From positions 1 through 31,539 of IMG/VR virus record IMGVR_UViG_3300025889_000571: DNA of 31,539 nt; one strand, 5' to 3'. The notes below the pieces were generated by a model. It had not been told where the DNA came from. It saw nothing but the letters and a program-made list of their open reading frames with translations, and made no database searches. The stretch's first letter is position 1, and each line of letters begins with the position of its first letter. The position numbers were made by a program, and so were the translations under genes. This DNA comes from a virus. Below are positions 150 to 29,762 of the stretch, one piece after another.

Positions 150-1934
150 ATGGCAAACAGCAACAACTGGGGAGAGATTTACAAGTCCACATGGTGGGGG
201 GACAAGGCATGGAGCGCGAACACGCTCTTCATTGATTCAGCCCCTCCCGGCTTTGGGCTCAACTTGCTGAAGGCTTCCGAAGACATGAACATCACTCGCG
301 ACTGGAGTCAGTTCCTTATTTCAGTTGCGGCCAATAGCACAGACGAGGCAGCTCCCAATGCAACGGACACGGCCGAAAAGCTAACCTTCACGGACGCACC
401 GCAGTCAAGGATTCAGCAGCAGATCGCCCTCGAGGCAAACACGACCTACACCTTCAGCGTATACGCAAAGGTGCGGACGGGCACAAAGAACTTCAGGCTT
501 CGTAATGTAACTCTCGGTCAGGCGCAACAATTCACAGCGGACACATCTTGGGGGCTGAACCCAGACGATGGACGCTACTCCTTCAGCTTCACAACGGGAG
601 CGACAGCGATCACCCACACCTTGAGCATTCAGAACGCAGCAGCGGCAGGGACAGGGGAGGTCTTCTTCTGGGGCGCGATGTTGAACGAGGGAGCGACAGC
701 GGGCGACTATGTGAAGACGGACGCCTCGGTCGGTGGCAGCGCACCCGCGCCTGCATATAGCGGCTTCGGGGATGCCTTCGGAGGGGTTACGGCTTACTAT
801 TCTCTGCGCCAGTTCACAGAGGCCGAAACGCTCAACGCCATACGGGTGAGAAGGTCAAGCGATGACACCGAGCAAGATATAGGCTTCGATGCGAACGGAG
901 ATTTGGATAGTACGGCTCTCCTTGCTTTTGTGAATGAGGATGTGGATGTGTACACATCTGACTTTTCAAGTACCGAGGACTTATCCGCAGGTAATGGAAC
1001 GGGGGCAGCAGCCCAAAGTGTGGGAGGGGTAAACGATGCATATAAGTTTACTTTGAGTGGTGGTTCTACTTTTCATCTTGCATCTTTGCCGTCAGTTATG
1101 CCAGTTGGACAAGTTTTTAATGTAAGTTATGAGTACTACATTCCAAGTGGTCAAACAGTTAATGAAATAAAATTTATTGATAGTGGGTTATCATCACAAT
1201 CAACACTCGACCAATGGGTAACGGTTAATGAAATAAATAAAACCTCAACGAGAGCAAGTTTGAGATTTTTTGCATCTGACGGGACAACTACAGTAGATGC
1301 CGATGACGATGTGTTCTACCTCAAAAACATTGTAGTCACCCAAACCACCGCAGACGGAGCGGTCACAACTTGGTACGACCAAAGCGGCAACGGCAACCAT
1401 GCGACCAACTCGACCGCATCCGAGCAACCATTGATTGTTGAGGGTGGAGATATCATATATGAGGGAGCAACGATATCACGACCGGCAATTGAGTTTGATG
1501 GGGTGGATGACTACTTCACGGCAAGTAATTTGATTACAGAACTTGACAACACTGACTTTTTAATTTCAGTAGTTAGCGCAGATGAATTTAGTGGAGGCTC
1601 TGAAGCCTCTGTTCCTCGCTTGTATTTAAGGCATAGAGCTTGGTCATACAACACTCTTGATACAATGACATGGAGTCCTTTAACGGGTCAGTCACTTATA
1701 TCATTTCAAGTGGATGGTGCTACGCAAGAAGTTTTTGGAAATGGAACATCCGTAGCCACGGCCTCAGAGGCTCAAGTAGATTTTACGCCAACAGATTTTT
1801 TAATTGGTCGTTATGCCTCAACGGGGTGGATGGATGGAACGTTGCAAGAAATCATAATTTTCGCTTCCGACCAATCAGCCAACCGAACCGGCATCGAGGG
1901 GAACATTGACAATTATTTCAGAATCACATCATGA
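150..1934 (+). CDS. Tail fibre / receptor-binding protein with CBM-like and arabinofuranosidase-like modules (A/B hybrid)
   Basis: 594 residues from ATG 150, two bases after the preceding stop; an earlier in-frame ATG at 12 lies inside the connector gene and is rejected. Residues 1-40 carry a WG-x-IY ... WWGD motif also seen at the start of the 28263 fibre, probably the virion-attachment end. Residues about 50-205 look like a beta-sandwich carbohydrate-binding module. Residues about 210-255 plus 395-440 (RVRRSSDD, QDIGFDANG, then TTWYDQSGNGN) resemble the arabinofuranosidase-like lectin domain common in phage fibres. A second CBM-like module of about 130 residues (257-386) is inserted in it and is the exact repeat shared with the other fibre. 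The last 200 residues are a LamG-like fold (FDGVDDYF ... GIEGNIDNYF). Base composition changes along the gene, so the 5' part is phage A and the 3' part may be phage B. It overlaps the next gene by ATGA. Confidence 0.8.
   Translation: MANSNNWGEIYKSTWWGDKAWSANTLFIDSAPPGFGLNLLKASEDMNITRDWSQFLISVAANSTDEAAPNATDTAEKLTFTDAPQSRIQQQIALEANTTYTFSVYAKVRTGTKNFRLRNVTLGQAQQFTADTSWGLNPDDGRYSFSFTTGATAITHTLSIQNAAAAGTGEVFFWGAMLNEGATAGDYVKTDASVGGSAPAPAYSGFGDAFGGVTAYYSLRQFTEAETLNAIRVRRSSDDTEQDIGFDANGDLDSTALLAFVNEDVDVYTSDFSSTEDLSAGNGTGAAAQSVGGVNDAYKFTLSGGSTFHLASLPSVMPVGQVFNVSYEYYIPSGQTVNEIKFIDSGLSSQSTLDQWVTVNEINKTSTRASLRFFASDGTTTVDADDDVFYLKNIVVTQTTADGAVTTWYDQSGNGNHATNSTASEQPLIVEGGDIIYEGATISRPAIEFDGVDDYFTASNLITELDNTDFLISVVSADEFSGGSEASVPRLYLRHRAWSYNTLDTMTWSPLTGQSLISFQVDGATQEVFGNGTSVATASEAQVDFTPTDFLIGRYASTGWMDGTLQEIIIFASDQSANRTGIEGNIDNYFRITS
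917..1305 (+). repeat. 389-bp exact direct repeat, copy 1 (CBM-like module of tail fibre)
   Basis: Identical by eye to 28664-29052, with a constant offset of 27,747 at both ends, so there are no indels. The offset is a multiple of three, so both copies are read in the same fibre frame. Similarity tails off on both sides (patchy from about 840, about 85 percent to about 1430). The repeat is AT-richer than either flanking phage. It encodes a complete beta-rich module and marks the junction between phage A and phage B sequence. Confidence 0.95.
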
Positions 1935-2167
1935 GTTGGTACATCGGGACACATGCGGAATGCACCGCATACAATGACAAGGTCAACGAGGTCAAATCGT
2001 ACAATGGGAGCATCACCGCAACATGGGGAATTGTCCGACCGAATCAGAGCGATCCGGAGCAATTTGCAATTGTATCATGTCCGGGCATTGAACCGGATGA
2101 GGAATCATCATTGAAATTGGTTGAGGAATTGGGATCTGAATGGTATCCAGCAAACGAAATTGAATAG
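1931..2167 (+). CDS. Small conserved fibre-associated protein (phage B)
   Basis: 78 residues, starting MSWYIGT, with the ATG overlapping the fibre stop (ATGA at 1931). The protein at 29759-29989 is its counterpart, with the same N-terminus, the KVNEVK/KVNEAK and GSIT motifs and similar length (roughly 45 percent identity by eye), again overlapping the end of a fibre gene. There are no signal peptide, membrane segment or cysteine motifs. Strict conservation of position after the fibre suggests a fibre chaperone or small tail-tip subunit, but that is inference from context; I do not recognise the family. Confidence 0.75.
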   Translation: MSWYIGTHAECTAYNDKVNEVKSYNGSITATWGIVRPNQSDPEQFAIVSCPGIEPDEESSLKLVEELGSEWYPANEIE

Positions 2168-2169
2168 AC

Positions 2170-3345
2170 ATGGCAACACTATATGACACCGCCACGATGC
2201 TCTATGTCCCATCCGGGTACAAAGCATCCAAAGTTTATGGTCTGAAACCCACCGGAGCGGATGGTGAGGGTACTGCAACGAGATCCACCATCTCCTCCAG
2301 GATCAACTCAAGCGGAGTTGTGGAGGAATCGGTGGCAATCAATACCATTGCCCACGATTACGGCTCGGTCTCATCACCTCTGAATTGTCCGGAGGCAATT
2401 GTATCTCCCGATCGCACCAATCACCTCCTCAAATCCAATGTGGTCAACACCGGTGAAGCGGAATGGCTCGGAACGGCATCGAGCGGAACGGCAATCACCT
2501 CACCAAATGGTGCAACCGAGGGAGAGGAGATCGTGTTTTCATCGAGTGCATCCGATTATGTCGGTCAGCGACCATCGGGATTGTCCGCTGGTGTGGAGTA
2601 CACTTTCTTTTTTTGGGTGCGGATAGCAGATGGTGGAACGGCAAAGGACATTCGGATACAACATTACGATGGCACATCCACCAATCTCCTTGCATCTCCG
2701 ACCATTTCATCCAATGAATGGGTGAAAGTATCGTACACATTCACGGCAACGGCAGATGCCACCGAGAGAGTTGACATCAAGAATTGCACACCGGGAGTTG
2801 CCGGATCGATTTATGTGTGGGGTGCAAATGTTCAGAAATCGGGAACGGACATTCACATTAAGACCGACACATCCACCGCATCCAGGTCATTCGATATCAT
2901 CGCATTTGACGATTTGCAGACCAACAATGTGTTCAGCAACGCATCCGGAACTTTCTTTTTTTATGGAACGATTGGAGTTGATTCCGCTAACAATGATTTG
3001 TTGTCGATATGGGACACCACCACCAACAACCGGATCATTTTGGAGGGAGGTGCATTCAAATCATATGTCGGTGGATCAGCGGTGACTGGATTGGAGGTAC
3101 TCTCACCATCGAGCAACGATCGTTTCAGCGGTGCATTTGCAATTGCATGGGACTCCTCATCATGCCGGATCTCGGTCAATGGGGCAACGGCTGATGCAAG
3201 TGGGTTGACCTCATTTGCTCCGGCTACTTATTCCGATCTCCGCATCTATGGATCGAGTCAAGCATCCACCACACGCATCAAAGCGATTGCCGGTTGGAAT
3301 GCTAAACTCACACAAACCGAATTGAACACTCTGACCGCTTTGTGA
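2170..3345 (+). CDS. LamG/CBM-type adsorption protein (phage B)
   Basis: 391 residues. The N-terminus (MATLYDTATMLYVPSGYKASK) matches the N-terminus of the 29993 protein (MANLFDSASLLLVASAFKSAK). Residues about 78-225 form a CBM-like beta-sandwich (HLLKSN, GVEYTFFFWVRI, SIYVWGANVQ, IHIKTD) of the same style as the module at residues 50-205 of the 150 fibre. The C-terminal half is a LamG/concanavalin-like repeat ending LTQTELNTLTAL, also shared with 29993. The 29993 homologue lacks the middle module, so the domain is an insertion or deletion between the two phages. Probable role is glycan binding at the host surface as a secondary fibre or tail-tip component. Two bases separate it from the previous gene; its stop overlaps the next start by one base. 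Confidence 0.7.
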   Translation: MATLYDTATMLYVPSGYKASKVYGLKPTGADGEGTATRSTISSRINSSGVVEESVAINTIAHDYGSVSSPLNCPEAIVSPDRTNHLLKSNVVNTGEAEWLGTASSGTAITSPNGATEGEEIVFSSSASDYVGQRPSGLSAGVEYTFFFWVRIADGGTAKDIRIQHYDGTSTNLLASPTISSNEWVKVSYTFTATADATERVDIKNCTPGVAGSIYVWGANVQKSGTDIHIKTDTSTASRSFDIIAFDDLQTNNVFSNASGTFFFYGTIGVDSANNDLLSIWDTTTNNRIILEGGAFKSYVGGSAVTGLEVLSPSSNDRFSGAFAIAWDSSSCRISVNGATADASGLTSFAPATYSDLRIYGSSQASTTRIKAIAGWNAKLTQTELNTLTAL

Positions 3346-3755
3346 TGAAATGTGAGGTGACACTCCACCGATTGTCCGATGATGGCATACAGACCATCGG
3401 AGAGATGGTATATCAAGGAAAGAGAGTGTGCCACACATTAGAATTGGCATGGAGGGACAACAGACGATCCATCTCATGCATCCCTCCTGGATCATATGTG
3501 GTCAAGTATGTCAACTCTCCTCGATTCGGAGCGGAGACATATCACATCACCGAGGTCAAAGGGAGATCGCACATCCGCATCCATGTGGGCAACTTTTACG
3601 ATCAGATCGAGGGATGTGTATTGGTAGGGACTGATCTCAAGGATCTCAATGGTGATGGCAGATTGGATGTGGTTAATTCACGCAAAGCATTGGCACATCT
3701 GAAAAGCATAGTCGGATCACCTTTTACACTACACATCAAAAATTGTTTGGCATGA
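3345..3755 (+). CDS. DUF5675 family protein, possible cell-wall-active enzyme (phage B)
   Basis: 136 residues from ATG 3345, overlapping the previous stop by one base (a GTG one codon earlier is also possible). It matches the DUF5675 pattern: an N-terminal strand with LELAWRDN and IPPGSY, then IRIHVGN with His80 and EGCVLVG with Cys91, and LKDLNGDGRLDV after it. The His ... Gly-Cys arrangement resembles the active site of L,D-transpeptidase-like folds, and its place before membrane lysis-type genes suggests action on peptidoglycan. That function is inference; the family itself has no established activity that I know of. A diverged copy lies at 30717-31157 in phage A with His85 and Cys96 conserved. 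Confidence 0.75.
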   Translation: MKCEVTLHRLSDDGIQTIGEMVYQGKRVCHTLELAWRDNRRSISCIPPGSYVVKYVNSPRFGAETYHITEVKGRSHIRIHVGNFYDQIEGCVLVGTDLKDLNGDGRLDVVNSRKALAHLKSIVGSPFTLHIKNCLA

Positions 3756-4060
3756 ACTATTGGGGGGAAATCGCAACCGGTCTGATCACCGCATTGACCA
3801 CATACTTTGTGACGATGAAACGCACAAAGGCAGAGATCCGAGGGATCGAGGCAGAGGCATCCGGGAGTGAATTGGATTCGGTGGAGAAAGCCATTGAGAT
3901 TTGGCGAAAATTAGCGGAGGAGATGACCGAGAAAATGACCGAGCAGAGGAATGAGATGGAGAAACAGATGGACATCTTGAGAGGCAAGATTGAGGAATTG
4001 GAATCCGAGAATAAGAAATTGAAAAGGGAATTGTCCGCTCTCCGGAGGAATAGCAAATGA
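3752..4060 (+). CDS. Membrane-anchored coiled-coil protein, holin or inner-membrane spanin-like
   Basis: 102 residues from ATG 3752, coupled to the DUF5675 stop by ATGA. Residues 5-22 are one hydrophobic N-terminal segment (IATGLITALTTYF). From about residue 28 to 100 the protein is a charged amphipathic helix rich in Glu and Lys, ending LRGKIEELESENKKLKREL, a clear coiled coil. One N-terminal membrane helix plus a coiled coil is the topology of an Rz-type inner-membrane spanin, and the next gene is a lipoprotein. It could instead be an atypical holin. The position between DUF5675 and the lipoprotein makes a lysis role likely. Confidence 0.6.
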   Translation: MNYWGEIATGLITALTTYFVTMKRTKAEIRGIEAEASGSELDSVEKAIEIWRKLAEEMTEKMTEQRNEMEKQMDILRGKIEELESENKKLKRELSALRRNSK

Positions 4061-4464
4061 GGAGTGCATATCTGATCCTCATCATGCTCTCGATGGGTTG
4101 CCGGTCAGCAGATCAGCACATCGGGAGAGCCATTGCCAAAGATCCCACACTCATCCAATACAAACCGATCCGGCTGGATACAATGGTGGTCACCTTTGCA
4201 CCATCCATTGACACATCCATCAGCATCACACCGGACAAACCGATCACCATTGAGGAGGATGGGTTGATCGTGACTCTCCAGGAGGAGGACGATGGTCAAT
4301 TGTCGGTGAGTGCGGAATGCCCGACCGATACCATATACATCGAGAGAGTTGAATATGTGCCACAAATTGAATACCACGAGCCACCATTCAAGGTGATGGA
4401 TCTGTTGTATGCATTTGGTGGATTGGTTGCCATTTCGCTCATCGTTTCTATCCTCCGCAGATAG
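4057..4464 (+). CDS. Spanin-like lipoprotein with C-terminal membrane helix (candidate unimolecular spanin)
   Basis: 135 residues, coupled by ATGA to the coiled-coil gene. The N-terminus is a short lipoprotein signal (MRSAYLILIMLSMGC) with the lipidated Cys at residue 15; the residue at -3 is Ser, so the lipobox is not ideal. Residues about 112-132 (DLLYAFGGLVAISLIVSIL) form a C-terminal transmembrane helix followed by RR. A lipoprotein anchor at one end and an inner-membrane helix at the other, with a beta-rich middle and about 130 residues, is the layout of unimolecular spanins such as T1 gp11. Alternatively it pairs with the preceding coiled-coil protein as the outer-membrane partner. It is the last gene before a terminator. 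Confidence 0.55.
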   Translation: MRSAYLILIMLSMGCRSADQHIGRAIAKDPTLIQYKPIRLDTMVVTFAPSIDTSISITPDKPITIEEDGLIVTLQEEDDGQLSVSAECPTDTIYIERVEYVPQIEYHEPPFKVMDLLYAFGGLVAISLIVSILRR

Positions 4465-4470
4465 CTGAAA

Positions 4471-4501
4471 ATCAGTCCATCACACATGGATTGATATTTT
4501 T
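4471..4501 (+). terminator. Rho-independent terminator closing the fibre-lysis operon
   Basis: Arms atcagtccat (4471-4480) and atggattgat (4486-4495) pair over 10 bp with one G-U pair around a cacac loop, followed by A and a T-run (4497-4501). It sits 7 bp after the spanin-like gene and just before the next promoter-like sequence. Confidence 0.7.
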
Positions 4502-4513
4502 CTTTGCAGTTTT

Positions 4514-4546
4514 TTTGATTGTTTGTTTGTTTTTTCTATACATTAG
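4514..4546 (+). promoter_or_regulatory. Bacteroidetes-type promoter for the early block
   Basis: TTTG at 4514-4517 and TACATTAG at 4539-4546 approximate the Bacteroidetes -33 TTTG and -7 TAnnTTTG boxes with a 21-bp spacer, inside a very T-rich stretch. It lies between a terminator and the ATG at 4572, leaving a leader of about 20 nt. One base of the -7 box differs from consensus. Confidence 0.4.
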
Positions 4547-4571
4547 CGGAAACAAACAACACACAATCATC

Positions 4572-4973
4572 ATGCGTAGAGCATCATACAATCAGATCCA
4601 GCGATATCACGATGCGTTGGTCAACTTGAAATCCATGAGCGGTGAGGTATTCACACAAAAGGATTTCAGCAGAGCGCACAAGGTCACCACCGAATTCCTC
4701 CGGGCATGTCAAGATATGCAACTCATCGAGAGAAGAGGGAGGCAATACCATTGGATCAGCACCGAACCGATCACATTGTACACCGCTGATGAGGTCAGAG
4801 AGCGCACCGCAAAGATGCATCGGGGATATTTGGAGGCAATGGCAAAGAAATCCAATCCGGAGATCAAGGTCACGCCAAAGAAATCACCAGCACCACGAAA
4901 GCGGAGAAAGGTCACACCACCAAAGAAAAGGGAGATCTCTATCCTTTGGGGAATGTTCACCATCAAATACTGA
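4572..4973 (+). CDS. Putative winged-helix DNA-binding early protein
   Basis: 133 residues from ATG 4572. An upstream in-frame ATG at 4491 would add a hydrophobic leader, but that stretch is T-rich promoter sequence between a terminator and this start, so I reject it. Residues about 20-65 (FTQKDFSRAHKVTTEFLRA then LIERRGRQYHWI) read as helix-turn-helix plus wing: a recognition-type helix followed by the short strand pair typical of winged helices. The last 40 residues are very basic (KKSPAPRKRRKV, PPKKR), which suits nonspecific nucleic-acid contact. First gene after the early promoter, so an early regulator is plausible. No specific family is recognised. Confidence 0.55.
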   Translation: MRRASYNQIQRYHDALVNLKSMSGEVFTQKDFSRAHKVTTEFLRACQDMQLIERRGRQYHWISTEPITLYTADEVRERTAKMHRGYLEAMAKKSNPEIKVTPKKSPAPRKRRKVTPPKKREISILWGMFTIKY

Positions 4974-4978
4974 TCGAC

Positions 4979-5206
4979 ATGACCAATCAACCAACACTCC
5001 TGGAGCAACTGACCGAGGAATGTCACAACAAATTGATGGCATATGAATATGAGGTCACCAAACAAAGGCTCATCGACATCCTCAAGGATAAGCATTGGAT
5101 CAGTGAACTCACCATCGGTGATGCACAAGATCTGACCGATATCATGGAGGATCAACCATTCCCTCTCTTGGATGTCGGCAAATTGTTTAAATACATCAAC
5201 AAATGA
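4979..5206 (+). CDS. Small hypothetical early protein
   Basis: 75 residues from ATG 4979, five bases after the previous stop; an in-frame ATG at 4946 inside the previous gene is less likely. Acidic and helical (LLEQLTEECHNKLMAYEYE), without membrane segment or recognisable motif. It overlaps the next start by ATGA, so it belongs to the same translationally coupled early operon. Function unknown. Confidence 0.6.
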   Translation: MTNQPTLLEQLTEECHNKLMAYEYEVTKQRLIDILKDKHWISELTIGDAQDLTDIMEDQPFPLLDVGKLFKYINK

Positions 5207-5445
5207 GCATTCAAGAAAACATGGAGCAGTACAATGCCGATCGCATTGTATCTCTTGAAAAGCGCATCAAGGAATTGGAGAGTGAGTTGAATGAGGCAAT
5301 CTCATGCACCGCATTGATGACCATTGCGTACATGCAAAATCGAAAGGTCAACAAAGCCGGAATGGACAAAGTTGTCACATTCCTGGATCGTCAAGATCCC
5401 GATGCACTCACACAATTTCCGCAGAAAGAGGAAAAAAATCCGTAA
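5203..5445 (+). CDS. Small coiled-coil early protein
   Basis: 80 residues, ATGA-coupled to the previous gene. Residues about 15-35 (IVSLEKRIKELESELNEA) form a short coiled coil with heptad leucines and isoleucines, followed by a less regular helical tail. It ends KEEKNP. I recognise no family. Its position in the early cluster, ahead of the SSB-like gene, suggests an accessory or host-takeover role, but nothing in the sequence shows this directly. Confidence 0.6.
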   Translation: MSIQENMEQYNADRIVSLEKRIKELESELNEAISCTALMTIAYMQNRKVNKAGMDKVVTFLDRQDPDALTQFPQKEEKNP

Positions 5446-5506
5446 ATTTCGGAGCAGAAAAAAGGGAAAGCACCATCCCTCGACCGGTGTACCTAAACAA
5501 CAAAGA

Positions 5507-5713
5507 GTGAAAGATTACTCCATTCTATTTGGATTGACCTATGATTTCAATTGGCGAATCAAGGTCATCCAGCGCAACGAACAATCCACATTGTCCAAGG
5601 ATGGTGGACGATTGACCATCGATTATGATGAGAAAGTCGTGACCACCAAAGGATATCAACTCTCCGAACTTGAGAGAGTATTCATCAACCACAAAGGCTA
5701 TCAAATCCAATGA
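5507..5713 (+). CDS. Small hypothetical protein, GTG start proposed
   Basis: 68 residues if started at GTG 5507, which is preceded by an A-rich tract. The frame is open from 5324, but that longer version runs through the whole end of the preceding gene and would start with a very basic, low-complexity segment, so the short form is preferred; no in-frame ATG lies between. The conserved-looking core reads DYSILFGLTYDFN ... LTIDYDEKVVTTKGYQLSE. It is ATGA-coupled to the SSB-like gene. Function unknown; the start is the weak point. Confidence 0.45.
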   Translation: MKDYSILFGLTYDFNWRIKVIQRNEQSTLSKDGGRLTIDYDEKVVTTKGYQLSELERVFINHKGYQIQ

Positions 5714-6237
5714 GCATGGAAATCAAGAAATCCACACCGGTAACGATAACCGGCAACGGCACATGGGAATCTCAATATGGTTTGTTCTACAAATTCGAGA
5801 TCGAGATGGACAATGGTGATATCGGTGAGTATTCATCAAAGAGCAAGGATCAAAATAAATTTGTGTTGGGTCAAGAGACCGAGTACGAATGGCACTCCAG
5901 GAATGTCAACGGCAAAGTGTATCACAACATCAAGCCGGTCAAACAAGAATTCCAGCCCAACAGATCCGGAGGAGGATTCCAAAAATCCAACAATGCGGAT
6001 CGGGATCTCATGATCAACCGACAATCATCCCTCAACCGAGCCACCGATCTTTGTATCAATGGCAAAATCGAGTTGGCTGATGTGCTGGTGTATGCGGAGG
6101 TCTTTGTAAATTATGTTCAGAGCGGAGCAAAAGCGCAATCAAACAATCCCGGAACTCAAGAAACGATCGATCAGATCAAGGACAATGCAGAGAAAAAGAG
6201 CATCGTCCAAAACGGATCGGATGGGTTGCCATTTTAG
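5710..6237 (+). CDS. Single-stranded DNA-binding protein-like (OB fold), early replication
   Basis: 175 residues. Residues 1-80 read as an OB-fold barrel (TPVTITGNGTWESQ, FYKFEIEMDNGD, GEYSSK, YEWHSRNVNGKVYHNIKPV). A linker follows, then a helical region about 98-135 (RQSSLNRATDLCINGK ... DVLVYAEVFVNYV) that I recognise from phage SSB-like proteins. The C-terminus SDGLPF resembles the acidic DDDIPF tip that SSB uses to recruit partners. Expected role is coating ssDNA during phage replication in the cytoplasm. It ends the first early transcript, with a hairpin terminator ten bases after the stop. The start overlaps the previous stop by ATGA; a second ATG follows two codons later. Confidence 0.65.
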   Translation: MSMEIKKSTPVTITGNGTWESQYGLFYKFEIEMDNGDIGEYSSKSKDQNKFVLGQETEYEWHSRNVNGKVYHNIKPVKQEFQPNRSGGGFQKSNNADRDLMINRQSSLNRATDLCINGKIELADVLVYAEVFVNYVQSGAKAQSNNPGTQETIDQIKDNAEKKSIVQNGSDGLPF

Positions 6238-6246
6238 GGAATAAAA

Positions 6247-6278
6247 AAAGGGAGGCACAAGCGGTGTGACCTCCCTTT
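6247..6278 (+). terminator. Hairpin terminator after the SSB-like gene
   Basis: Arms aaagggagg (6247-6255) and cctcccttt (6270-6278) pair perfectly, and an inner CAC/GTG extends the stem past one bulged A. The flanking A-run and T-run make it potentially bidirectional. It lies between the SSB-like stop (6237) and the next ATG (6322). Confidence 0.6.
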
Positions 6279-6321
6279 ACAAACAAAACACATACCGCAA
6301 AATTAAGCAATCAAAACACAC

Positions 6322-6801: not shown

Positions 6802-6805
6802 TGTG

Positions 6806-6813
6806 TATATTTG
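6806..6813 (+). promoter_or_regulatory. TAnnTTTG -7 promoter box
   Basis: TATATTTG fits the Bacteroidetes -7 consensus exactly. A TTTG at 6780-6783 is a possible -33 element with a 22-bp spacer, slightly long. A transcript from here would begin near 6820, at the start of the structured leader ahead of the replication gene. Confidence 0.5.
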
Positions 6814-6824
6814 CATATTGTGTT

Positions 6825-6918: not shown

Positions 6919-6930
6919 ATACGAAACAAA

Positions 6931-7605: not shown

Positions 7606-7615
7606 AATTGCGAAA

Positions 7616-8386
7616 ATGAACACACAACTCATCCAGCGGTCAGACCTGGAACACCATCCACAATTCAAAAAGCAATCACCGGTCATCCGGGATGCCATGA
7701 TCTCCCATGTGGAGGGAGTGCCATTGATGGGAGATGCACGAGAGAAATTTGTGATCTCCGAAATCGCAAAGGCATCCACACGATGCGGTCAAAACGAGAT
7801 GCCCGGAGAGAGGTATTTCCTCCTCCGCAAAGACCTTGAGCATTACATCCAATCGAATTGTGCCACATGGAAAGCCGATCAGCTATCCAACGCATTTCGG
7901 GATGGTGCGATGAGAGATCCCGACCGATCCCTCACGATCAACACATTCATCCGCTGGATAAAGCACTACGATGAGCATGTGCGGAGAATTGCACTCCATG
8001 AGTTGAGGTCATTGGACAAGAAAAAGGAGAGGGAGCAATTCAAGGTGAGTGAATTATCGTCTGACAAACGAAAGGCATTCATCCGATCGGCATTCGACCG
8101 CTGGAAAAAAGGCAACAAAAAAGGATTGTCGGTCGTGTACGATTATCTCACCGAGGAGAAATTGATTGAGATCTCGGTCAAAGAGCGGTGGCGGTACATT
8201 TATGAGAGCGCAGAGGCATTGACCAAATCCCTCAAGGAGCAAAATGAGGGGATGATGATGTCATTTGTCCGCATCCGGATGCATCAGATCAAAGGCATCA
8301 AGGAAAATGAACCATTATCCGTTCCGGGTTTCGTCAAAGTGGAGGCACAAACCAGGATCGTTGAGGATTATTTCCGGACATTATGA
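7616..8386 (+). CDS. Hypothetical helical protein of the replication block
   Basis: 256 residues from ATG 7616, ten bases after the initiator stop, with an A-rich leader. The frame is open from 7514 within the initiator gene, but the upstream part is a shadow. Mostly alpha-helical and charged; notable segments are MPGERYFLLRKDLEHYIQS, TINTFIRWIKHYDEH and a basic SSDKRKAFIRSAFDRWKKG. No Walker motif is visible, so it is not an obvious ATPase loader. Position after the initiator and ATGA coupling to the PAPS-reductase-like gene suggest a DNA-metabolism accessory role. Family not recognised. Confidence 0.65.
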   Translation: MNTQLIQRSDLEHHPQFKKQSPVIRDAMISHVEGVPLMGDAREKFVISEIAKASTRCGQNEMPGERYFLLRKDLEHYIQSNCATWKADQLSNAFRDGAMRDPDRSLTINTFIRWIKHYDEHVRRIALHELRSLDKKKEREQFKVSELSSDKRKAFIRSAFDRWKKGNKKGLSVVYDYLTEEKLIEISVKERWRYIYESAEALTKSLKEQNEGMMMSFVRIRMHQIKGIKENEPLSVPGFVKVEAQTRIVEDYFRTL

Positions 8387-9237
8387 GTGACATGATCACA
8401 TGCACCAGCATCTCCGGTGGTCGTACCTCCGGATATGTGGCATCCAAGTATCCATCGGATCACAATGTCTTTGCTTTGGTACGCACAAGCGATCCAATTT
8501 GCAAATATCCGGATGCAACATTGCGGAAAAGAGTTGAGGATCGAATACAAAAACCATTTGTCGGTACTCTTGAGGATGATCTCATCATTCAAACCATATT
8601 TGATTTGGAGCAACACATTGGGCGTGAAATCAGTTGGGTGAGCGGTATCACATATGATGAAATCGTTGATACCAAAGGTGGATGGTTGCCCAACAAGTTG
8701 CATCGATATTGCACAACCTGGATGAAACTCACTCCGATATTTTATTGGTGGGCGGAGCATATCGGTGAACCGGTACAAATGCAAATTGGATTCCGAGCAA
8801 ATGAAGGGAGAAGAGCCAAAAAGATGATGGACAAGACCAACAAAAATGGATTGCTGGAATTCAAAGCGACATTCGGTAAAAATTCAAGAGGACAAAACAA
8901 ATGGGAGCAAGTAGAATGGCAAAAGCCATCATTCCCATTGATCGACAATGGCATTTTTAAGGATCAGATTCAAGCGTATTGGGACAAACACACCGATGTT
9001 GAATTTGCTCCATTCAATAATTGTGTGGGATGTTTTCACCGCAATCCCATATTCCTCCGCAAAATGGCTGATGAGCATCCAAACAAAATGGAATGGTTCG
9101 CCAAACAAGAGGAGAGAGAGAGCAAAGGTCAATGGAGATCCGATGTGAAATATCGGGACATCATCAAATCCAAATTGCAAATGGAATTGTCATTTGACGA
9201 TTTCAGCGATTGTGATTCGGGATATTGCGGAATGTGA
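8383..9237 (+). CDS. PAPS reductase-like PP-loop ATP pyrophosphatase family protein
   Basis: 284 residues, ATGA-coupled to the previous gene. The N-terminal SGGRTS (residues 11-16) is the PP-loop that binds ATP in the PAPS reductase/ATP sulfurylase/DndC superfamily. RYCTTWMK (108-115) is the family RxCTxxxK motif. A CVGC pair (Cys214, Cys217) plus Cys277 and Cys282 near the C-terminus could bind an Fe-S cluster or zinc. Such genes are frequent in phages and usually annotated as phosphoadenosine phosphosulfate reductase, but no sulfate-assimilation partner is present here. A role in nucleotide or nucleic-acid modification is possible and unproven. The neighbouring VRR-NUC nuclease overlaps its stop by one base. 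Confidence 0.75.
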   Translation: MSDMITCTSISGGRTSGYVASKYPSDHNVFALVRTSDPICKYPDATLRKRVEDRIQKPFVGTLEDDLIIQTIFDLEQHIGREISWVSGITYDEIVDTKGGWLPNKLHRYCTTWMKLTPIFYWWAEHIGEPVQMQIGFRANEGRRAKKMMDKTNKNGLLEFKATFGKNSRGQNKWEQVEWQKPSFPLIDNGIFKDQIQAYWDKHTDVEFAPFNNCVGCFHRNPIFLRKMADEHPNKMEWFAKQEERESKGQWRSDVKYRDIIKSKLQMELSFDDFSDCDSGYCGM

Positions 9238-10034: not shown

Positions 10035-10451
10035 ATGGCAAGAAGAGGCAGAAAACCCAAAGGTGCTGGAGATGTGGTCGAGAAGATCACCAAAGCCACC
10101 GGAATCAAAAAAGTGGTCGAGATATTTTCCGAGGCAACCGGGATCGATTGCGGATGTGAGGAGAGGAAAGAGAAATTGAATAAACTCTTTCCGTACAAAT
10201 ATCCCAAATGCATGACCGCTGATCAATTCCATCTCTATTCGGAATACAAAGCGACACGCACCAAAACGCTCTCCAGCATCCAACAAGAATTCATCGCATC
10301 TCTTCATGCTGATCTCTTCCAACATCAGAAATACAAGCCATGCACATGTGATCCCAAAGCATGGATGACGATGGTTCACGATCTCGACAAGATGCATGGT
10401 CAATATGAAAGCGATATCCAGGATGAGCGAAAGAGAGGAGGTCAGAATTGA
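10035..10451 (+). CDS. Conserved Bacteroidetes phage protein with Cys pairs
   Basis: 138 residues from ATG 10035. The N-terminus is basic (MARRGRKPKGAGD) followed by VEKITKATGIKKVV and DCGCEERKEKLNKLFP, a stretch I recognise from hypothetical proteins of Bacteroidetes phages and prophages. Cys39 and Cys41 (by count about there) plus a later CTC near residue 110 could bind zinc. The remainder (MTADQFHLYSEYKATRT) is helical. It precedes the ParB-like gene, which starts inside its end. Function unknown; the position before terminase suggests DNA transactions or packaging. Confidence 0.65.
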   Translation: MARRGRKPKGAGDVVEKITKATGIKKVVEIFSEATGIDCGCEERKEKLNKLFPYKYPKCMTADQFHLYSEYKATRTKTLSSIQQEFIASLHADLFQHQKYKPCTCDPKAWMTMVHDLDKMHGQYESDIQDERKRGGQN

Positions 10452-10971
10452 GCATGACATCATCGATCTCGATGACCTCACATGCCATCCGCACAATCCC
10501 CGATTGATACGCAAAAAGAAATTCAGCGATCTCCAAAAATCACTCAAGGAGGATATGTGGATGATGTCGGTGAATCAGATCATCATCGATGAGAGCAATG
10601 TGATATTGTCCGGCAACCAACGAGTGAGAGCATTGAGAAAGATGGGCATCCAAAATGCACCGGTGATGCGTTTGATAGGAGCATCGGAGGAGCAGAAAAA
10701 GAGACTCCTATACAAGATCAATGACCATCATGGAGAGTACGATCCCGATATGGTTGCAAATGATTATGATGTGGTCGACATGGACAATCTGAAACACTAT
10801 GGAAACGAGTTGGAGAAAATGAATTCAACTCTGATGGAGCAGAATATCCGCATTGTGCTGGAATATTCAGAGGAGAAACACGATGAGGTCATCTCCAAAT
10901 TGGAGGAATCGGAGGAATCGTACTCCGACCAGGTATATCAACTGATCACCAACCGGACATCCACCACATGA
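10423..10971 (+). CDS. ParB/Spo0J N-terminal domain (ParB-like nuclease fold) protein
   Basis: 182 residues from ATG 10423, overlapping the previous gene by 29 bases (an earlier ATG at 10396 is possible). The core is a ParB N-domain: IDLDDLTCHPHNPR at the start, LQKSLKEDMWMMSVNQIIID, then ILSGNQRVRALRKMG, which is the GxxRxxA-type CTP/DNA-binding loop. The C-terminal third is helical and acidic (EKHDEVISKLEESEE). In phages this domain is often fused to a DNA methyltransferase; here it stands alone beside the terminase genes. It may act on DNA end recognition or packaging. The partition partner ParA is absent. ATGA overlap with the next reading frame. Confidence 0.75.
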   Translation: MSEREEVRIEHDIIDLDDLTCHPHNPRLIRKKKFSDLQKSLKEDMWMMSVNQIIIDESNVILSGNQRVRALRKMGIQNAPVMRLIGASEEQKKRLLYKINDHHGEYDPDMVANDYDVVDMDNLKHYGNELEKMNSTLMEQNIRIVLEYSEEKHDEVISKLEESEESYSDQVYQLITNRTSTT

Positions 10972-22876: not shown

Positions 22877-22899
22877 TTTTACAACGAAAAGCATTTGAT

Positions 22900-23601: not shown

Positions 23602-23621
23602 ACGGCTAAAAAAGATAAATC

Positions 23622-24569
23622 ATGCCAACACCAGCAATCACAAGTAATTTCACCGGCGAACACGCCGGGAAATACATCAACGCTGCTCTCCAAAGCGGAT
23701 CAACCATCGGCAACGAGGAGGTGACTATCCTCCCCAATGTCCGATATAAGACAAATGTCACTCGACTCACTTTGGGAGATGTCATTGCAGATGCCACATG
23801 TAATTTCACCGATGGCTCTTCATTGGCTCTTGTTGATCGGGAAATTGCCCCGAAAGAGATGCAAGTGAATTTGCAACTCTGCAAACAAGATCTGTTGGAT
23901 TCTTGGGAGGCTTTGCAAATGGGTTTCTCTGCATACAAGGAGATCCCACAAAATTTCACCGATTACCTCCTGGCATATGTCGGAGAGAAAGTTGGTGCAG
24001 AGGCAGAGAATTACATTTGGACAGGTGATGCTGGAACATCCGGAGAATTCGGTGGTTTTAATGCAACTCTGATCAGCGAGACTGCATCGATTCCAGCCGG
24101 TCAGAAGATCAATGCCGGTTCAGCGGTCGCAGTTGATTCAACAAATGTCCTGGCTCGTTTGGGCGCAATGCTCGATGCTTTGCCACAGAGCGTGTACGGA
24201 AAGAATGATGTTCGTTTCTATGTCGCTCCGAATGTCGCTCGTGCGTACATGCGTGTACTCGGTGGATTTGCCTCCGGTGGAGTTGGCGCAAACGGATACC
24301 AAAATGAGGGATCTGTTGGTTTCAAGCCATTGAATTTCGATGGAATCGACATGGTAATGTGCCCCGGTCTGACCGCATCCACAATGCTCCTCACTCGCAA
24401 ATCAAATCTGTTCTTTGGAACGGGTCTGATGAATGACTGGCAAGAGGCACGAGTGCTGGATATGGCTGACATCACCGGTTCAAACAATTATCGTGTGATC
24501 ATGCGTTTCTCCGCTGGTACTCAAATTGGAATCATCGAGGATGTAGTATTGGATGGTCTCGGAGCATAA
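23622..24569 (+). CDS. Major capsid protein
   Basis: 315 residues from ATG 23622, behind an A-rich leader. Typical HK97-fold features: an N-terminal arm, an extended region DLLDSWEALQMG, E-loop-like sequence, a spine helix around 190 (VLARLGAMLDALPQSVYG) then VRFYVAPNVARAYMRVLG, and a final beta strand segment (YRVIMRFSAGTQIGIIEDVVL). Codon use shifts toward CGT, GGT and GCT compared with neighbours, as expected of the most expressed virion gene. Position after protease and scaffold fixes the identity. Confidence 0.82.
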   Translation: MPTPAITSNFTGEHAGKYINAALQSGSTIGNEEVTILPNVRYKTNVTRLTLGDVIADATCNFTDGSSLALVDREIAPKEMQVNLQLCKQDLLDSWEALQMGFSAYKEIPQNFTDYLLAYVGEKVGAEAENYIWTGDAGTSGEFGGFNATLISETASIPAGQKINAGSAVAVDSTNVLARLGAMLDALPQSVYGKNDVRFYVAPNVARAYMRVLGGFASGGVGANGYQNEGSVGFKPLNFDGIDMVMCPGLTASTMLLTRKSNLFFGTGLMNDWQEARVLDMADITGSNNYRVIMRFSAGTQIGIIEDVVLDGLGA

Positions 24570-24593
24570 GTCTAACCACTAAAGCAAAGAGCC

Positions 24594-25097
24594 ATGTCAT
24601 GTACTATTTCAACGGCACGAACCGAGCCATGCAAAGACAAGATCGGTGGAATCAAGAGAGTGTGGTTTTCCACATTCTCTGACACCATCGCATGGGACAC
24701 CACAACACCGGGAACAATTGCGATTGATTCCGCTGGAACAATTGCCGGGACGCAATATGATGTCCGTATGGCATCCGGTCTGACCAACACGATCACCAGC
24801 AGTCGGGAGAATGGGACAACATTTGTCACACAATCTCTCACTCTGCAACTGAAAGGATTGACCGCAACTGATGAGGCAGAGATCCTGGCATTGTCACGAG
24901 GACGATGGATCGTTGTCATCGAGGACAACAATGGATCGGGATGGGTAATCGGTCGGGAGTATGGTGCAGATGTCACCACCGGCACGGCTCAAACCGGAAC
25001 GGCATTGGGTGACCTCTATGGATACACCATCACCATCGAGGGAATGGAGAGAGAGTTGCCATTGTACAACGCTGATCCATCAAGTCTGATCTCATAA
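24594..25097 (+). CDS. Structural protein after capsid, possible tail tube protein
   Basis: 167 residues from ATG 24594. It begins MSCTISTARTEPCKDKIGGI, an N-terminus I recall from proteins that follow the capsid gene in Bacteroidetes phages. The body is beta-rich (VTQSLTLQLKGLTATDEAEI, GRWIVVIEDNNG, LYGYTITIEGMERELP), compatible with a tail-tube or head-decoration fold. No other tube candidate of normal size exists in the window, which favours the tube. A strong terminator lies 36 bases downstream, so it probably ends the capsid transcript. Confidence 0.5.
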   Translation: MSCTISTARTEPCKDKIGGIKRVWFSTFSDTIAWDTTTPGTIAIDSAGTIAGTQYDVRMASGLTNTITSSRENGTTFVTQSLTLQLKGLTATDEAEILALSRGRWIVVIEDNNGSGWVIGREYGADVTTGTAQTGTALGDLYGYTITIEGMERELPLYNADPSSLIS

Positions 25098-25133
25098 AAT
25101 TCAGCAACCACATCTGTTGTTGTTTAGGGGAGG

Positions 25134-25159
25134 AGGGAGCATTTGCTCCCTTTTTTTTT
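25134..25159 (+). terminator. Strong Rho-independent terminator after the capsid operon
   Basis: agggagca (25134-25141) and tgctccct (25144-25151) pair over 8 bp around a TT loop, followed by nine Ts ending at 25159. It stands between 25097 and the small gene at 25170. Confidence 0.85.
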
Positions 25160-25169
25160 ACATTTAGGG

Positions 25170-25319
25170 ATGCCAATACCAAAACCCACACCCCAAGAGG
25201 ATCAAAAATCATTCATGCAGAGATGCACCTCGGATGATGTCATGGTCAAGGAATATCCCAACAAACAACAACGGATTGCCGTTTGTTTCGTCCAATGGAG
25301 AGATGCTAAAATTCGCTAA
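25170..25319 (+). CDS. 49-residue head-block protein (MPIPKP ... MQRC family)
   Basis: ATG 25170, ten bases after the terminator T-run, to TAA 25317-25319. The sequence starts MPIPKPTPQEDQKSFMQRC and continues with VMVKEYPNKQQRIAVCFVQW. I recognise this signature (MPIP-x-P ... F-x-x-RC-x-x-D-x-x-M-x-x-EYP ... QR-x-AVC) from phage head genes, where it occurs as a small protein or at the N-terminus of the prohead protease. Two Cys are conserved. Function unknown. It is too short to be found by length cut-offs. Confidence 0.7.
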   Translation: MPIPKPTPQEDQKSFMQRCTSDDVMVKEYPNKQQRIAVCFVQWRDAKIR

Positions 25320-25328
25320 ATTTGTTTG

Positions 25329-25802
25329 ATGCAAGTGTGGACAACATCGAGTGAGGGCAACACATGGAGATTCATGCCCCGGACAATCACCGATGCTGAT
25401 TCAATCATTGCATGGGGTGAACGAGAACACACCGGAAAATCAGATCTTTTTTTCAATACCTTGACCGGAAACATCTCCGGATCATGGATTGTCATTTCAA
25501 ATCGTGACATCCCCACATACAAGGAGGGAGAATTTGTGTATTTGCGTGTGTTCAAAGTAGGGACACCGGGAGGACTTGTTGAACAGATCAGAGAGCAACC
25601 ATCCGAGATCCTGGCAAACATCACACACAACGATGCATTCAATAAGATCGTCACCGCATTTGATGAAGATGAGTTGTCGGAGGAGATATACCGGGGAAAG
25701 GTTCTGATCACCGATGAGACTCCGGATCTGAAATACTCCATTTATGCCGATGATCCGATGAGCGCACCTCCGAAACCAAATCGATCATGGCTGACAACTT
25801 AA
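25329..25802 (+). CDS. Hypothetical head-block structural protein
   Basis: 157 residues from ATG 25329, nine bases after the small gene. Mostly beta: TWRFMPRTITDADSIIAW, GNISGSWIVISNRDIP, EFVYLRVFKVG, then a helical part (IREQPSEILANITHND) and VLITDETPDLKYSIYADD. It overlaps the portal start by 16 bases. A head-tail joining or capsid accessory role is plausible by position; I do not recognise the family. A TAAATTTG box (25317-25324) lies too close to its start to be a convincing promoter. Confidence 0.6.
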   Translation: MQVWTTSSEGNTWRFMPRTITDADSIIAWGEREHTGKSDLFFNTLTGNISGSWIVISNRDIPTYKEGEFVYLRVFKVGTPGGLVEQIREQPSEILANITHNDAFNKIVTAFDEDELSEEIYRGKVLITDETPDLKYSIYADDPMSAPPKPNRSWLTT

Positions 25803-27757
25803 AGCAATACCTCAAATCTCACCGGGTGGTGAAGATGAGTGCATATACCTCACCAAAGATCGAGGAGAATGCCAAAGGTGGGTATGTGAAATATGGTGCG
25901 AACGATGAGTATTATCAGCACCTCATCGATTTATTTCATACCTCACCAACCAACAATGCATCCATCCAGGGGATATCCGATCTCATCTATGGGGATGGTG
26001 TGGAGGTGAACATGGATGAGACCGATGTCAATGATTGGGCAATGTATCAATCATTGTTCAATGCCGATTGCATCCGGAAAGTATGCCACGATCTGAAATT
26101 GTTTGGACATGCATCATTCCAATGCACCTTTGAGGGAGGTCAACTGATCGCAGTCTCTCACATTGCAAGGGACACGATCCGACCAGGCATCTTGAATGAG
26201 GATGGTGAGATCGATTGTTTCTATTTCTGTTCGGATTGGAGCAAGGTTGGGAAAAGAGGATTTGAACTGCAAAAGATTCCAGCATACGGATATCAATCTG
26301 ATGGTGATCAGTTTGCCATCTTGAGCATTGATTCGTATTCCGCTGGATCTGTTTATTTCACTCCGGTGGATTATCAAGGTGGGTTGCAGTATGCCGAATT
26401 GGAGGGAGAGATATCCAACTATCATCTCAATGCCATCCACAATGGTCTGGCTCCTGGTCTGTTGGTGAATTTCAACAACGGCATCCCGACCGAGGAGGAG
26501 CAAGATCAGATCGAGAGGGACATCAATTCCAAATGGGGTGGGTCATCCAATGCCGGTCGCACGATCATTGCATTCAACGATGACAAGGAAAAGAGCGCAA
26601 CGATCGAACCGGTGCAGTTGTCGGATGCTCACAACTTATATGAATTCCTCTCATCGGAGTGCATGAGAAAAATCATGGTATCTCACCGGATTACCTCTCC
26701 AATGTTGTTGGGAATTAAGGACAACACCGGATTGGGCAACAATGCCGATGAATTGGAAAAGGCATCTATCCTCTTCAACAACTCGGTGATCAAGCCATTT
26801 CAAGATCTGATCATCGAGGGGATGCAATACATATTGCGTGACCAGGATCTCAAAGTTGACATATCATTCAAGACATCAAACCCATTCAAATCGAGTGAGG
26901 AAGATGCCGGAGATGTTGAGGTATCGTACACCGCACAACAGATCACCACCGCATTGGATGTGATTTCAAGGAATCAATCCGGTGAATTGACCGAATCTCA
27001 AGCCATGACCATTTTGGTCAGCATGTTGGGATTGACAAAGGATGTCGCAGAGCAGATGTTTCGATCCGAGGAGGTGCAGTTGGCATCCAACATGCCCAAA
27101 TTGGAGGAGGAGGATGCACAATTTTGGGTTGATTACCTATCCGACAAGGGAGAGACCATCGATGAGGATGAATGGGAGTTGGTGCATGAGGAGGTGGTCG
27201 AAGATTACGACCAACCGGATTCCGATTTCTTCACCTTATTCAAACGATTTGCCGATCCGGATGCAAAGAGTGAGGATGATTCGGGGATCTATCGTGTGAG
27301 GTATCGGTACGATCCACCGGAGGAGACACGCAATGACAAAGGTGAGGTGGTCTCCAGGATTTTTTGTCGCACGATGGTAAGGAATGCCAAAGCCAATGTG
27401 ATATATCGCAGAGATGACATCGACAAGATGAGCGATGCCGGTATCAATGGTGAATGGGCGAAGAAAGGACAATCCAAATACGACATTTGGAAATTCAAGG
27501 GAGGTGGTGGATGTTATCATCGTTGGGTGCGGATGGTATTCAAACGCAAAACCGACAAAGGAAAGGTGCGACCATTGGACGAATCCGAGAAAGGCACAAC
27601 CGATCGGAACTTGGATAAGAATTACAATGAGATCCCCGGATCAACTGCGAAATCTGATGGTGTGCCGAATGCAAAACTCGAACCCAAAGGATACCAGGAA
27701 GCCATCACAAAGCCAAAGGACATGGATGATCGGGGATTTGTAACCAAAAAAGGATAA
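25787..27757 (+). CDS. Portal protein with extra C-terminal domain
   Basis: 656 residues from ATG 25787. Residues 1-425 are a portal: LFHTSPTNNASIQGISDLIYG near the N-terminus, FGHASFQC and HIARDTIRPG in the wing, then SHRITSPMLLGIKDN and the helical stem/crown (LEKASILFNNSVIKPFQDLI). After an acidic linker (460-495) a second domain begins near 498: YRVRYRYDPPEE, SRIFCRTMVRNAK, YDIWKFKGGGGCYHRW and VRMVFKRK. I know that domain from other head proteins of Bacteroidetes phages, so its fusion to the portal is notable. The portal forms the dodecameric DNA channel at one capsid vertex. Confidence 0.82.
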   Translation: MADNLKQYLKSHRVVKMSAYTSPKIEENAKGGYVKYGANDEYYQHLIDLFHTSPTNNASIQGISDLIYGDGVEVNMDETDVNDWAMYQSLFNADCIRKVCHDLKLFGHASFQCTFEGGQLIAVSHIARDTIRPGILNEDGEIDCFYFCSDWSKVGKRGFELQKIPAYGYQSDGDQFAILSIDSYSAGSVYFTPVDYQGGLQYAELEGEISNYHLNAIHNGLAPGLLVNFNNGIPTEEEQDQIERDINSKWGGSSNAGRTIIAFNDDKEKSATIEPVQLSDAHNLYEFLSSECMRKIMVSHRITSPMLLGIKDNTGLGNNADELEKASILFNNSVIKPFQDLIIEGMQYILRDQDLKVDISFKTSNPFKSSEEDAGDVEVSYTAQQITTALDVISRNQSGELTESQAMTILVSMLGLTKDVAEQMFRSEEVQLASNMPKLEEEDAQFWVDYLSDKGETIDEDEWELVHEEVVEDYDQPDSDFFTLFKRFADPDAKSEDDSGIYRVRYRYDPPEETRNDKGEVVSRIFCRTMVRNAKANVIYRRDDIDKMSDAGINGEWAKKGQSKYDIWKFKGGGGCYHRWVRMVFKRKTDKGKVRPLDESEKGTTDRNLDKNYNEIPGSTAKSDGVPNAKLEPKGYQEAITKPKDMDDRGFVTKKG

Positions 27758-27760
27758 CCG

Positions 27761-28261
27761 ATGAGCGATGTTCTATTCATAAGGAGGGAAGATCTGTTGA
27801 GGTACACATCCATCGGTGGAAATGTGGATACTGACAAGATCATCCCACACATCAAGACCGCACAAGACCTCCACATCACTCCATTGTTGGGGACAAAGTT
27901 GTATCAGAAGATCGAGCAGATCATCACCGCTGGAACAACATCCGGAGTGTATTATGAACTCCTCACCGATTTCATCCAACCGGTGATCATCCACTATGCG
28001 ATGAGTGAATTTCTGCAATTCCATGCATATGAGATCAGCAATGGAGGAGTGTTCCGGCACATTTCGGAGAATAGCACGACACCATCTCTTGATGAGGTGC
28101 TGATGTTGGTGCAGAAATCAAGGGACAATGGAGATCATTACCGCAAACGATTGATAGATCATCTGTGCTACTACACATCTAATTTTCCGGAGTACACCGA
28201 GAGCCAATTGGATGGGCAATATCCCACCAGCACCAGGAGATTAACACGATGGAGTTTCTGA
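27761..28261 (+). CDS. Head-tail connector protein (phage B)
   Basis: 166 residues from ATG 27761, three bases after the portal. Helical, with FIRREDLLRYTSIGGNVD, TPLLGTKLYQKIEQIITAG and IHYAMSEFLQFHAYEI, the pattern of the connector (DUF6712-like) proteins that follow portal/capsid genes. The last 48 residues match the truncated gene at 2-148. It ends one base before the fibre start. Expected to bind under the portal and seal the packaged head. Confidence 0.72.
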   Translation: MSDVLFIRREDLLRYTSIGGNVDTDKIIPHIKTAQDLHITPLLGTKLYQKIEQIITAGTTSGVYYELLTDFIQPVIIHYAMSEFLQFHAYEISNGGVFRHISENSTTPSLDEVLMLVQKSRDNGDHYRKRLIDHLCYYTSNFPEYTESQLDGQYPTSTRRLTRWSF

Positions 28262-28262
28262 T

Positions 28263-29762
28263 ATGAGTTGGGGAAAGATTTATTGCGACACAAATTGGGG
28301 TGAGAATAAGTATCGCACCGCTGGATCGATCATCAACGAGGCAACACCGGATTGTTTCCAATTCCCGGAGTTTGTCTCGTTCAAGGATCATGTCAGATCC
28401 GAGGGAGCGACATATGAAAAGATGCAATGTGGCATCGACATCCTCCTCTTTTTAGGGAGATCCATATCCATCACACCACAATCACCGGACAATCCAACAT
28501 TCAGCGGAATTTTGGACACATACACCGGTGCAACGGCTGGATATAGCACAAGGAGATTGACCAACACATACACCGGAGGATTGATCCGGGTGCGGAGGTC
28601 AAGCGATGATGCGGAGCAAGATATTGGATACGATGCCAATGGAGAGGATTTGGATATCTCTGGTCTCCTTGCTTTTGTGAATGAGGATGTGGATGTGTAC
28701 ACATCTGACTTTTCAAGTACCGAGGACTTATCCGCAGGTAATGGAACGGGGGCAGCAGCCCAAAGTGTGGGAGGGGTAAACGATGCATATAAGTTTACTT
28801 TGAGTGGTGGTTCTACTTTTCATCTTGCATCTTTGCCGTCAGTTATGCCAGTTGGACAAGTTTTTAATGTAAGTTATGAGTACTACATTCCAAGTGGTCA
28901 AACAGTTAATGAAATAAAATTTATTGATAGTGGGTTATCATCACAATCAACACTCGACCAATGGGTAACGGTTAATGAAATAAATAAAACCTCAACGAGA
29001 GCAAGTTTGAGATTTTTTGCATCTGACGGGACAACTACAGTAGATGCCGATGGTGATGTGTTCTACCTCAAAAACATTGTCATAACCCAAACCACCGCAG
29101 ACGGAGCGGTTACAACCTTCTACGACCAAAGCGGCAACGGCAACGATGCGACCAACTCGACCGAATCCGAGCAGCCTCTTGTGGTGAGTGGGGGGACATT
29201 GGTAGAGGAGAATAGCAAGGCGGCAGTTGAGTTCAGCGGAAACCCCGTATACCTTGACGCAAGTAGCGCAATTTCGGACGCATTTACGGGCAATTCTGTT
29301 TACCAAAAATTTGAAGTAGCGCAAGTAACAAGCACATCGAAGGGCGGCATTTTGTGCGCGAATACGGGGTACAGAAGTTTCTTTAATCCCCCCTCTTACG
29401 ACTATGCAAATTTTCACAATCCTAACGGGTTGGAGGTTATCAGTTCCCTTAGTGTAGACCGAACGAATCAGTTTCTTTTTTCTGAATCATTTGACGCTAA
29501 CACGGGCGGAGGGACATACGAACTTTATGGTAATGGTGCATTGGAAAGAAGCCAAGGAAGCGAAGGAACAAGCAACCTCGACACTCCGACAAGTGTACAC
29601 ATTGGACGCGACCCAATTGGCGGTTCGAGTGCTTATTTAGTTGGCAAAATTCAAGAAATCATTTTCTTTAACTCCGACCAATCAGCCAACCGAGGCACAG
29701 TTACAACGGGCGGAGGCACGGGCATCGAGGGGAACATTAACACCTATTTCGACATCGTATGA
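28263..29762 (+). CDS. Tail fibre / receptor-binding protein (B front, A end hybrid)
   Basis: 499 residues from ATG 28263. It starts MSWGKIYCDTNWGENKY, matching the first residues of the 150 fibre. Residues 95-135 (RVRRSSDDAEQDIGYDANG) begin the arabinofuranosidase-like lectin domain. The CBM-like module encoded by the 389-bp repeat covers about 134-264, after which the lectin domain resumes (VTTFYDQSGNGNDATN). The C-terminal 230 residues are LamG-like (AVEFSGNPVYLDA ... GIEGNINTYFDIV) and unrelated in detail to the 150 fibre. The 5' 400 bases have phage B composition, the 3' part matches phage A. ATGA overlap with the next gene. Confidence 0.8.
   Translation: MSWGKIYCDTNWGENKYRTAGSIINEATPDCFQFPEFVSFKDHVRSEGATYEKMQCGIDILLFLGRSISITPQSPDNPTFSGILDTYTGATAGYSTRRLTNTYTGGLIRVRRSSDDAEQDIGYDANGEDLDISGLLAFVNEDVDVYTSDFSSTEDLSAGNGTGAAAQSVGGVNDAYKFTLSGGSTFHLASLPSVMPVGQVFNVSYEYYIPSGQTVNEIKFIDSGLSSQSTLDQWVTVNEINKTSTRASLRFFASDGTTTVDADGDVFYLKNIVITQTTADGAVTTFYDQSGNGNDATNSTESEQPLVVSGGTLVEENSKAAVEFSGNPVYLDASSAISDAFTGNSVYQKFEVAQVTSTSKGGILCANTGYRSFFNPPSYDYANFHNPNGLEVISSLSVDRTNQFLFSESFDANTGGGTYELYGNGALERSQGSEGTSNLDTPTSVHIGRDPIGGSSAYLVGKIQEIIFFNSDQSANRGTVTTGGGTGIEGNINTYFDIV
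28664..29052 (+). repeat. 389-bp exact direct repeat, copy 2 (CBM-like module of tail fibre)
   Basis: Second copy of 917-1305. Sequence before it differs from copy 1 apart from patchy similarity, and sequence after it diverges first at 29053-29054. Right junction between phage B and phage A sequence. Confidence 0.95.

Follow-up and report, generated by a model that had tools for sequence, protein, structure and literature searches.

Why does a single phage contig hold an identical piece of DNA in two fibre genes near its opposite ends? The window (the whole IMG/VR virus record of 31,539 bp, to which all positions refer) is identical across 389 bp at 917-1305 and 28664-29052 in a direct sequence comparison, and the exact match extends 0 bp further on either side. 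This bears out the identical pair reported in a preliminary description. Both copies are in frame within fibre genes, at 150-1934 and 28263-29762. Since the two fibre genes are homologous and the repeat encodes a domain of their proteins, some similarity is expected. Exact identity exceeds the expectation from homology, given that no other copy of the domain has more than 53% protein identity, and the match is not due to chance. Outward of the repeat, similarity is ~82% on the left (840-901 vs. 28584-28645) and ~90% for ~110 bp on the right, and short matches are common to the ends of both fibre genes.

Composition of the record

The order of genes given in the preliminary description is correct, running from the end of a connector gene and the front of a fibre gene of one phage (A) through the repeat to the fibre end of another (B), and from the connector and fibre front of B through the second repeat copy to the fibre end and further genes of A. 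The parts of A to the left and right of the repeats are called A-left and A-right.

1..149, + strand: 3' end of the head-tail connector gene of phage A, counterpart of 27761-28261; frame 2 reads DHYKRRLVDHLEYYPTRFPEY
150..916, + strand: front of the phage A fibre gene (MANSNNWGEIY...), up to the repeat; 98% amino acid identity to L037 and 96% to L104, contiguous with A-right in relatives
917..1305, + strand: repeat copy 1 (exact 389 bp), most of a predicted inserted CBM-like domain; insertion boundaries 931/1362, set by comparison with insert-less relatives (L046, L048, L049, L052, L053, and L058)
1306..1934, + strand: end of the phage B fibre gene (C terminus NIDNYFRITS); matches the B backbones L003/L096 and L006
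1931..28261, + strand: phage B core, with DUF5675, DnaD-like loader, PAPS-reductase-like, ParB-like, terminase, tape measure, protease, capsid, portal, and connector genes, from family matches to its genes and other contigs at ~100% identity
28263..28663, + strand: front of the phage B fibre gene, up to the repeat; 99-100% amino acid identity to L096 and L006
28664..29052, + strand: repeat copy 2 (exact 389 bp), same predicted CBM-like domain; insertion boundaries 28678/29109, insert absent in L006 (B backbone)
28664..28790, + strand: first 127 bp of the repeat, the exact end point of B contigs G002 and G003; a toy k=127 graph branches there
29053..29762, + strand: end of the phage A fibre gene (C terminus NINTYFDIV), from comparison with relatives
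29759..31539, + strand: phage A genes for a small protein, a fibre-associated protein, a DUF5675 protein, and a putative holin-like protein (the last so called from position and size alone); adjoins A-left, downstream, in relatives

Nucleotide composition and relatives both differ among these segments. GC content is 56.8% in 1-916, 46.2% in the core between the copies, 53.7% in 29053-31539, and 40.4% in the repeat itself. In a map of 250-bp tiles, A relatives are the best matches at both ends (92-98%) and 89 of the 92 core tiles match the B relative best, with the switches from A to B and back to A falling inside the two repeat copies. The first 250 bp are 98% identical to A relatives and have no match in the B relative, and at least 14 A-relative contigs match the segment at 29759-31539 with a nucleotide identity of 80-92%, in most cases about 90%. 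The C termini of the fibres are swapped between backbones: the gene at 150-1934 has an A front and the B-type ending NIDNYFRITS, and that at 28263-29762 has a B front and the A-type ending NINTYFDIV.

Relatives, retrieved with the fibre, terminase, A-left fibre front, A-right DUF5675 protein, and B fibre-associated protein as queries, preserve the parental orders. The A-left fibre front leads to the A-right fibre end in 24 contigs (23 plus one closed circle), the B front leads to the B end in two, and the crossed order (A-left then B, or B front then A-right) occurs in none of these 26 relative contigs spanning the fibre gene. These 24 A-to-A and two B-to-B arrangements confirm the topology inferred in the preliminary description, in which a single crossover joins A and a circular B (27,747 bp). 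The B relative IMGVR_UViG_3300029568_000010 is 27,927 bp, compared with 27,747 bp for the B circle of the window, and ~93% identical across the core; it runs unbroken from the B front (to 28822) through an insert and then into 1298-1512 and 1848-3367. In a second B backbone (L006), 28678 joins 1362 directly, without an insert. The 23 A contigs have A-left, an insert or none, and then A-right (29642-31539; typically about 90% identity in the closest), and in A relatives a separate portal and connector immediately precede the sequence at position 1. One A relative (G004; 3300025674_000255) has an exact 127-bp terminal overlap that closes it inside its own fibre insert, indicating a circle of 29,627 bp. 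From these comparisons, we read the record as the circular B (27,747 bp) embedded in A by way of the repeat. B is a complete genome of ~27.7 kb that assembles as a circle, and A is a phage of ~29.6 kb of which 916 bp plus 2,487 bp are present.

Phage A at near 100% identity was not found elsewhere in IMG/VR, and its uncrossed arrangement is seen in relatives rather than in the strain itself. In exact searches of all IMG/VR, neither a 36-base piece of the repeat nor strain-exact segments from the A and B ends hit any other record. Compared with known A relatives, the ends of the window have longest exact matches of 66 and 39 bp, with no branch points in common. By portal protein, the closest annotated phages are Nonlabens phages P12024S and P12024L (35% amino acid identity over 78%). 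These flavobacterial phages are 35.7 kb and their fibre has no match to those of the window; the relation is distant only. No portal relative was found in the genome contigs in which a host was sought. A Bacteroidota host is plausible for the window phages because the nearest annotated phages infect a flavobacterium.

Origin of the two joins

Very probably, the record is a chimeric metagenome contig of two separate, related small tailed phages, and chimeric assembly is by far the simplest reading of it. At both junctions the exact repeat (389 bp) is longer than the assembler k (127), and the sequences flanking each junction belong to different genomes according to the tile map, GC content, and relatives. 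In a de Bruijn graph of short reads, the 389-bp piece would be one edge with two entries and two exits. A single wrong turn from A-left into B would then send the assembly around B and on to A-right, giving exactly this record; where two paths enter and two leave the repeat and the partner is circular, one such error would suffice for both joins. Chimeras of this kind are recognized by a phylogenetic profile and coverage that differ across the join (PMC7111523), and the phylogenetic profile differs in this way across the joins of this record.

The ends of other contigs bear on the contexts of the repeat. Closure of the A relative by 127 bp indicates that an assembler with k=127 is in use for data of this kind, and metaSPAdes and MEGAHIT contigs that break at repeats are reported to terminate in a sequence of length maxK (PMC10914622). 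Two contigs that are ~100% identical to B (3300025759_000843, 21,350 bp, and 3300025769_002288, 13,009 bp; G002 and G003) both stop at precisely 127 bp inside the repeat, where a de Bruijn assembler with k=127 would break at an unresolved branch. In two further assemblies, this 127-bp start of the repeat therefore has a second, different left flank. We considered these ends as proof of two molecules and dropped the argument, since branch k-mers in the toy k=127 graph are the same whether there are two molecules or a single true cointegrate; the ends are used here solely as proof that the repeat has two contexts.

The preliminary description had offered a choice between a chimera and a cointegrate, and the order in relatives, the size of a fused molecule, the sufficiency of one wrong turn, and the partial state of A strongly favour the former. 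A real cointegrate would have arisen by one homologous crossover in the identical module, in a co-infected cell, that fused circular or concatemeric B into A, with the fused molecule then being sequenced. The gene order is exactly the product of such a crossover, which would be mechanically possible given that the assembly of one A relative closes into a circle and the order of B is circular, and the k=127 break signature is equally expected. However, the cointegrate would be ~57 kb, twice the genome of either parent, and should not fit in one head. All 26 relative contigs across the fibre gene are in parental order, and A is present in short pieces only and B whole, though A relatives are abundant and diverse. 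These points leave a real fused molecule very unlikely. Slightly slimmer is the chance that the molecule is real and that co-infecting phages sharing an identical fibre insert regularly form cointegrates whose resolution passes the insert between lineages, in which case the record would be a snapshot of the exchange intermediate.

The two other explanations concern the number of phages and the exactness of the repeat. One natural phage, 31.5 kb or longer, whose two fibre loci arose by duplication, would account for the same set of genes (fibre, small protein, fibre-associated protein, and DUF5675) at both ends. But the two sets come from different lineages, with different GC content and different best relatives, and the fibre halves are swapped between lineages. 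Since A relatives have their own portal and connector upstream, this explanation is ruled out in practice and we give it almost no weight. It is also conceivable, though unlikely, that the contig is a chimera in which the insert of A was slightly unlike that of B and the assembler collapsed both, so that the 389-bp identity and the recency of sharing are overstated. Assemblers do collapse strain bulges, and only the first 127 bp of the repeat are independently confirmed in two contexts. Against this, inserts of other phages differ at about half of their residues, far too much to collapse, and the joins require at least about 127 bp in common at each end.

A chimera of A and B resembles cases described for COBRA (PMC10914622) and in genome curation (PMC7111523), in which multi-path breaks leave maxK ends and joins at shared sequence merge two organisms. 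It differs from them in that both crossings lie within one record and a whole circular phage is embedded in another. As a warning to users of such records, the length, gene count, and completeness estimate of this one, as well as its two hybrid fibre proteins, are wrong for both phages.

The inserted domain and its exchange among phages

The repeat is predicted to encode most of an autonomous domain resembling a carbohydrate-binding module (CBM), a point absent from the preliminary description; the domain interrupts one loop of a laminin-G-type fibre domain. In an alignment of 29 fibres, the insertion lies at one loop of the laminin-G-type domain, which has weak matches to alpha-L-arabinofuranosidase B and laminin-G families. 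Chains without the insert read ...LLAFVGTGGTDNGxVTTWYDQSGNG..., and those with it have roughly 115-160 extra residues between LLAFV and VTTWYDQSGNG. The repeat starts 15 bp ahead of the insertion site and ends 56 bp short of the end of the insert. Across relatives, the insert at this one site is absent or is one of at least three types, of which the main type reads YTSDFSS...VFYLKNIVVTQTTADG, the second reads DEDFSSSTGW...IDDFEVVQITADG, and the third is that of L056.

Modelled alone, the main-type insert folds as a beta-sandwich (AlphaFold2 mean pLDDT of 86.8); the full-length fibre model was poor (pLDDT of 59.5) and we relied on the insert model. In Foldseek searches, it matches CBM22 (4xup/4xuo) with TM of 0.6-0.7, and CBM4, CBM29, and a porphyran-binding CBM are among the best solved matches. 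A Pfam CBM_4_9 match was present in one of 11 inserts (E=3.8e-5), in another member of the insert family; no significant Pfam match was found for the window's own insert, and searches of solved structures by sequence gave no significant match for the fibre or the insert. The insert would share its fold class with CBM22, CBM4/CBM_4_9, and CBM29 modules, but it is 16% identical to CBM22 and its sugar binding is predicted only. We infer that its target is a glycan, either at a surface or extracellular, and that it adjusts adsorption.

On a 24-row tree built from the 1.5 kb that precedes the fibre gene, insert type needs 11 changes, compared with a mean of 10.8 for shuffled labels. Within this sample, insert type therefore retains no detectable trace of backbone ancestry. 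In the window, the insert is 100% identical over 389 bp in fibres with flanks of different lineages, and the closest other insert is 53% identical in protein. This contrast indicates a recent exchange, from one phage to the other or from a third source. The claim in the preliminary description that exchange was recent gains support from the identity between A (about 55% GC) and B (46% GC), with the caveat that collapsing of bulges during assembly may mask a small number of mismatches midway through the repeat. Flanks that are ~80-90% alike for a short distance beyond the repeat would serve homologous exchange. Phages of this group very probably gain, lose, and exchange inserts by recombination at the conserved borders, plausibly by homologous recombination in co-infection, and would thereby probably change the surface glycan that they bind. 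Alongside the parental topology, comparison of sequences establishes a single insertion site, several insert types plus an empty state, conserved borders, and no link to backbone.

The join and the shared module both belong to kinds already known. With receptor binding predicted from folds, the module would be a fresh instance of domain shuffling in receptor-binding proteins, a known process; recent shuffling across families was found only in proteins of this class (PMC10684548). The mosaicism described there is alike in placing a domain at high identity in otherwise diverged fibres, and differs from that seen here, where the shuffled unit is an insert in one laminin-G-type loop and a single site is either empty or filled by one of three types. 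Cassette-like insertion into a fibre loop thus has a clear example in nature. Of lasting value is the series of inserts at one loop, the empty state included, and the phage group is a convenient natural series for testing whether one inserted module sets adsorption specificity.

Variation at other genes of the two phages

Other parts of the fibre and of its neighbour also vary. A-type fibres have a further CBM_4_9-like domain (150-760; E=0.0014) between the N-terminal anchor and the laminin-G part, which B-type fibres and L062/L063 lack. Two A-type fibres (L040 and L042) have a common front and insert and a different C-terminal laminin-G part, implying that this part is exchanged too. A like pattern recurs downstream, where the fibre-associated protein of B (2170-3345, 391 aa) has an extra CBM_4_9-like stretch at residues 86-203 (E=2.5e-9); that of A (29993-30727, 244 aa) is about 150 residues shorter at this stretch, and both ends align.

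Elsewhere in the core of B, the PAPS-reductase-like gene (8383-9237; phrog_424) is in a stretch without a nucleotide match in the 93%-identical B relative, and a 72%-identical counterpart is on the opposite strand in an A relative (L037, 2491-3170). It is probably another exchanged gene. A ParB-like protein (10396-10971), not far upstream of the terminase, matches ParB/methyltransferase families (phrog_498 and phrog_620). In both phages, a DUF5675 protein directly follows the fibre cluster (3342-3755 in B and 30717-31157 in A), a position that suggests a putative role in lysis.
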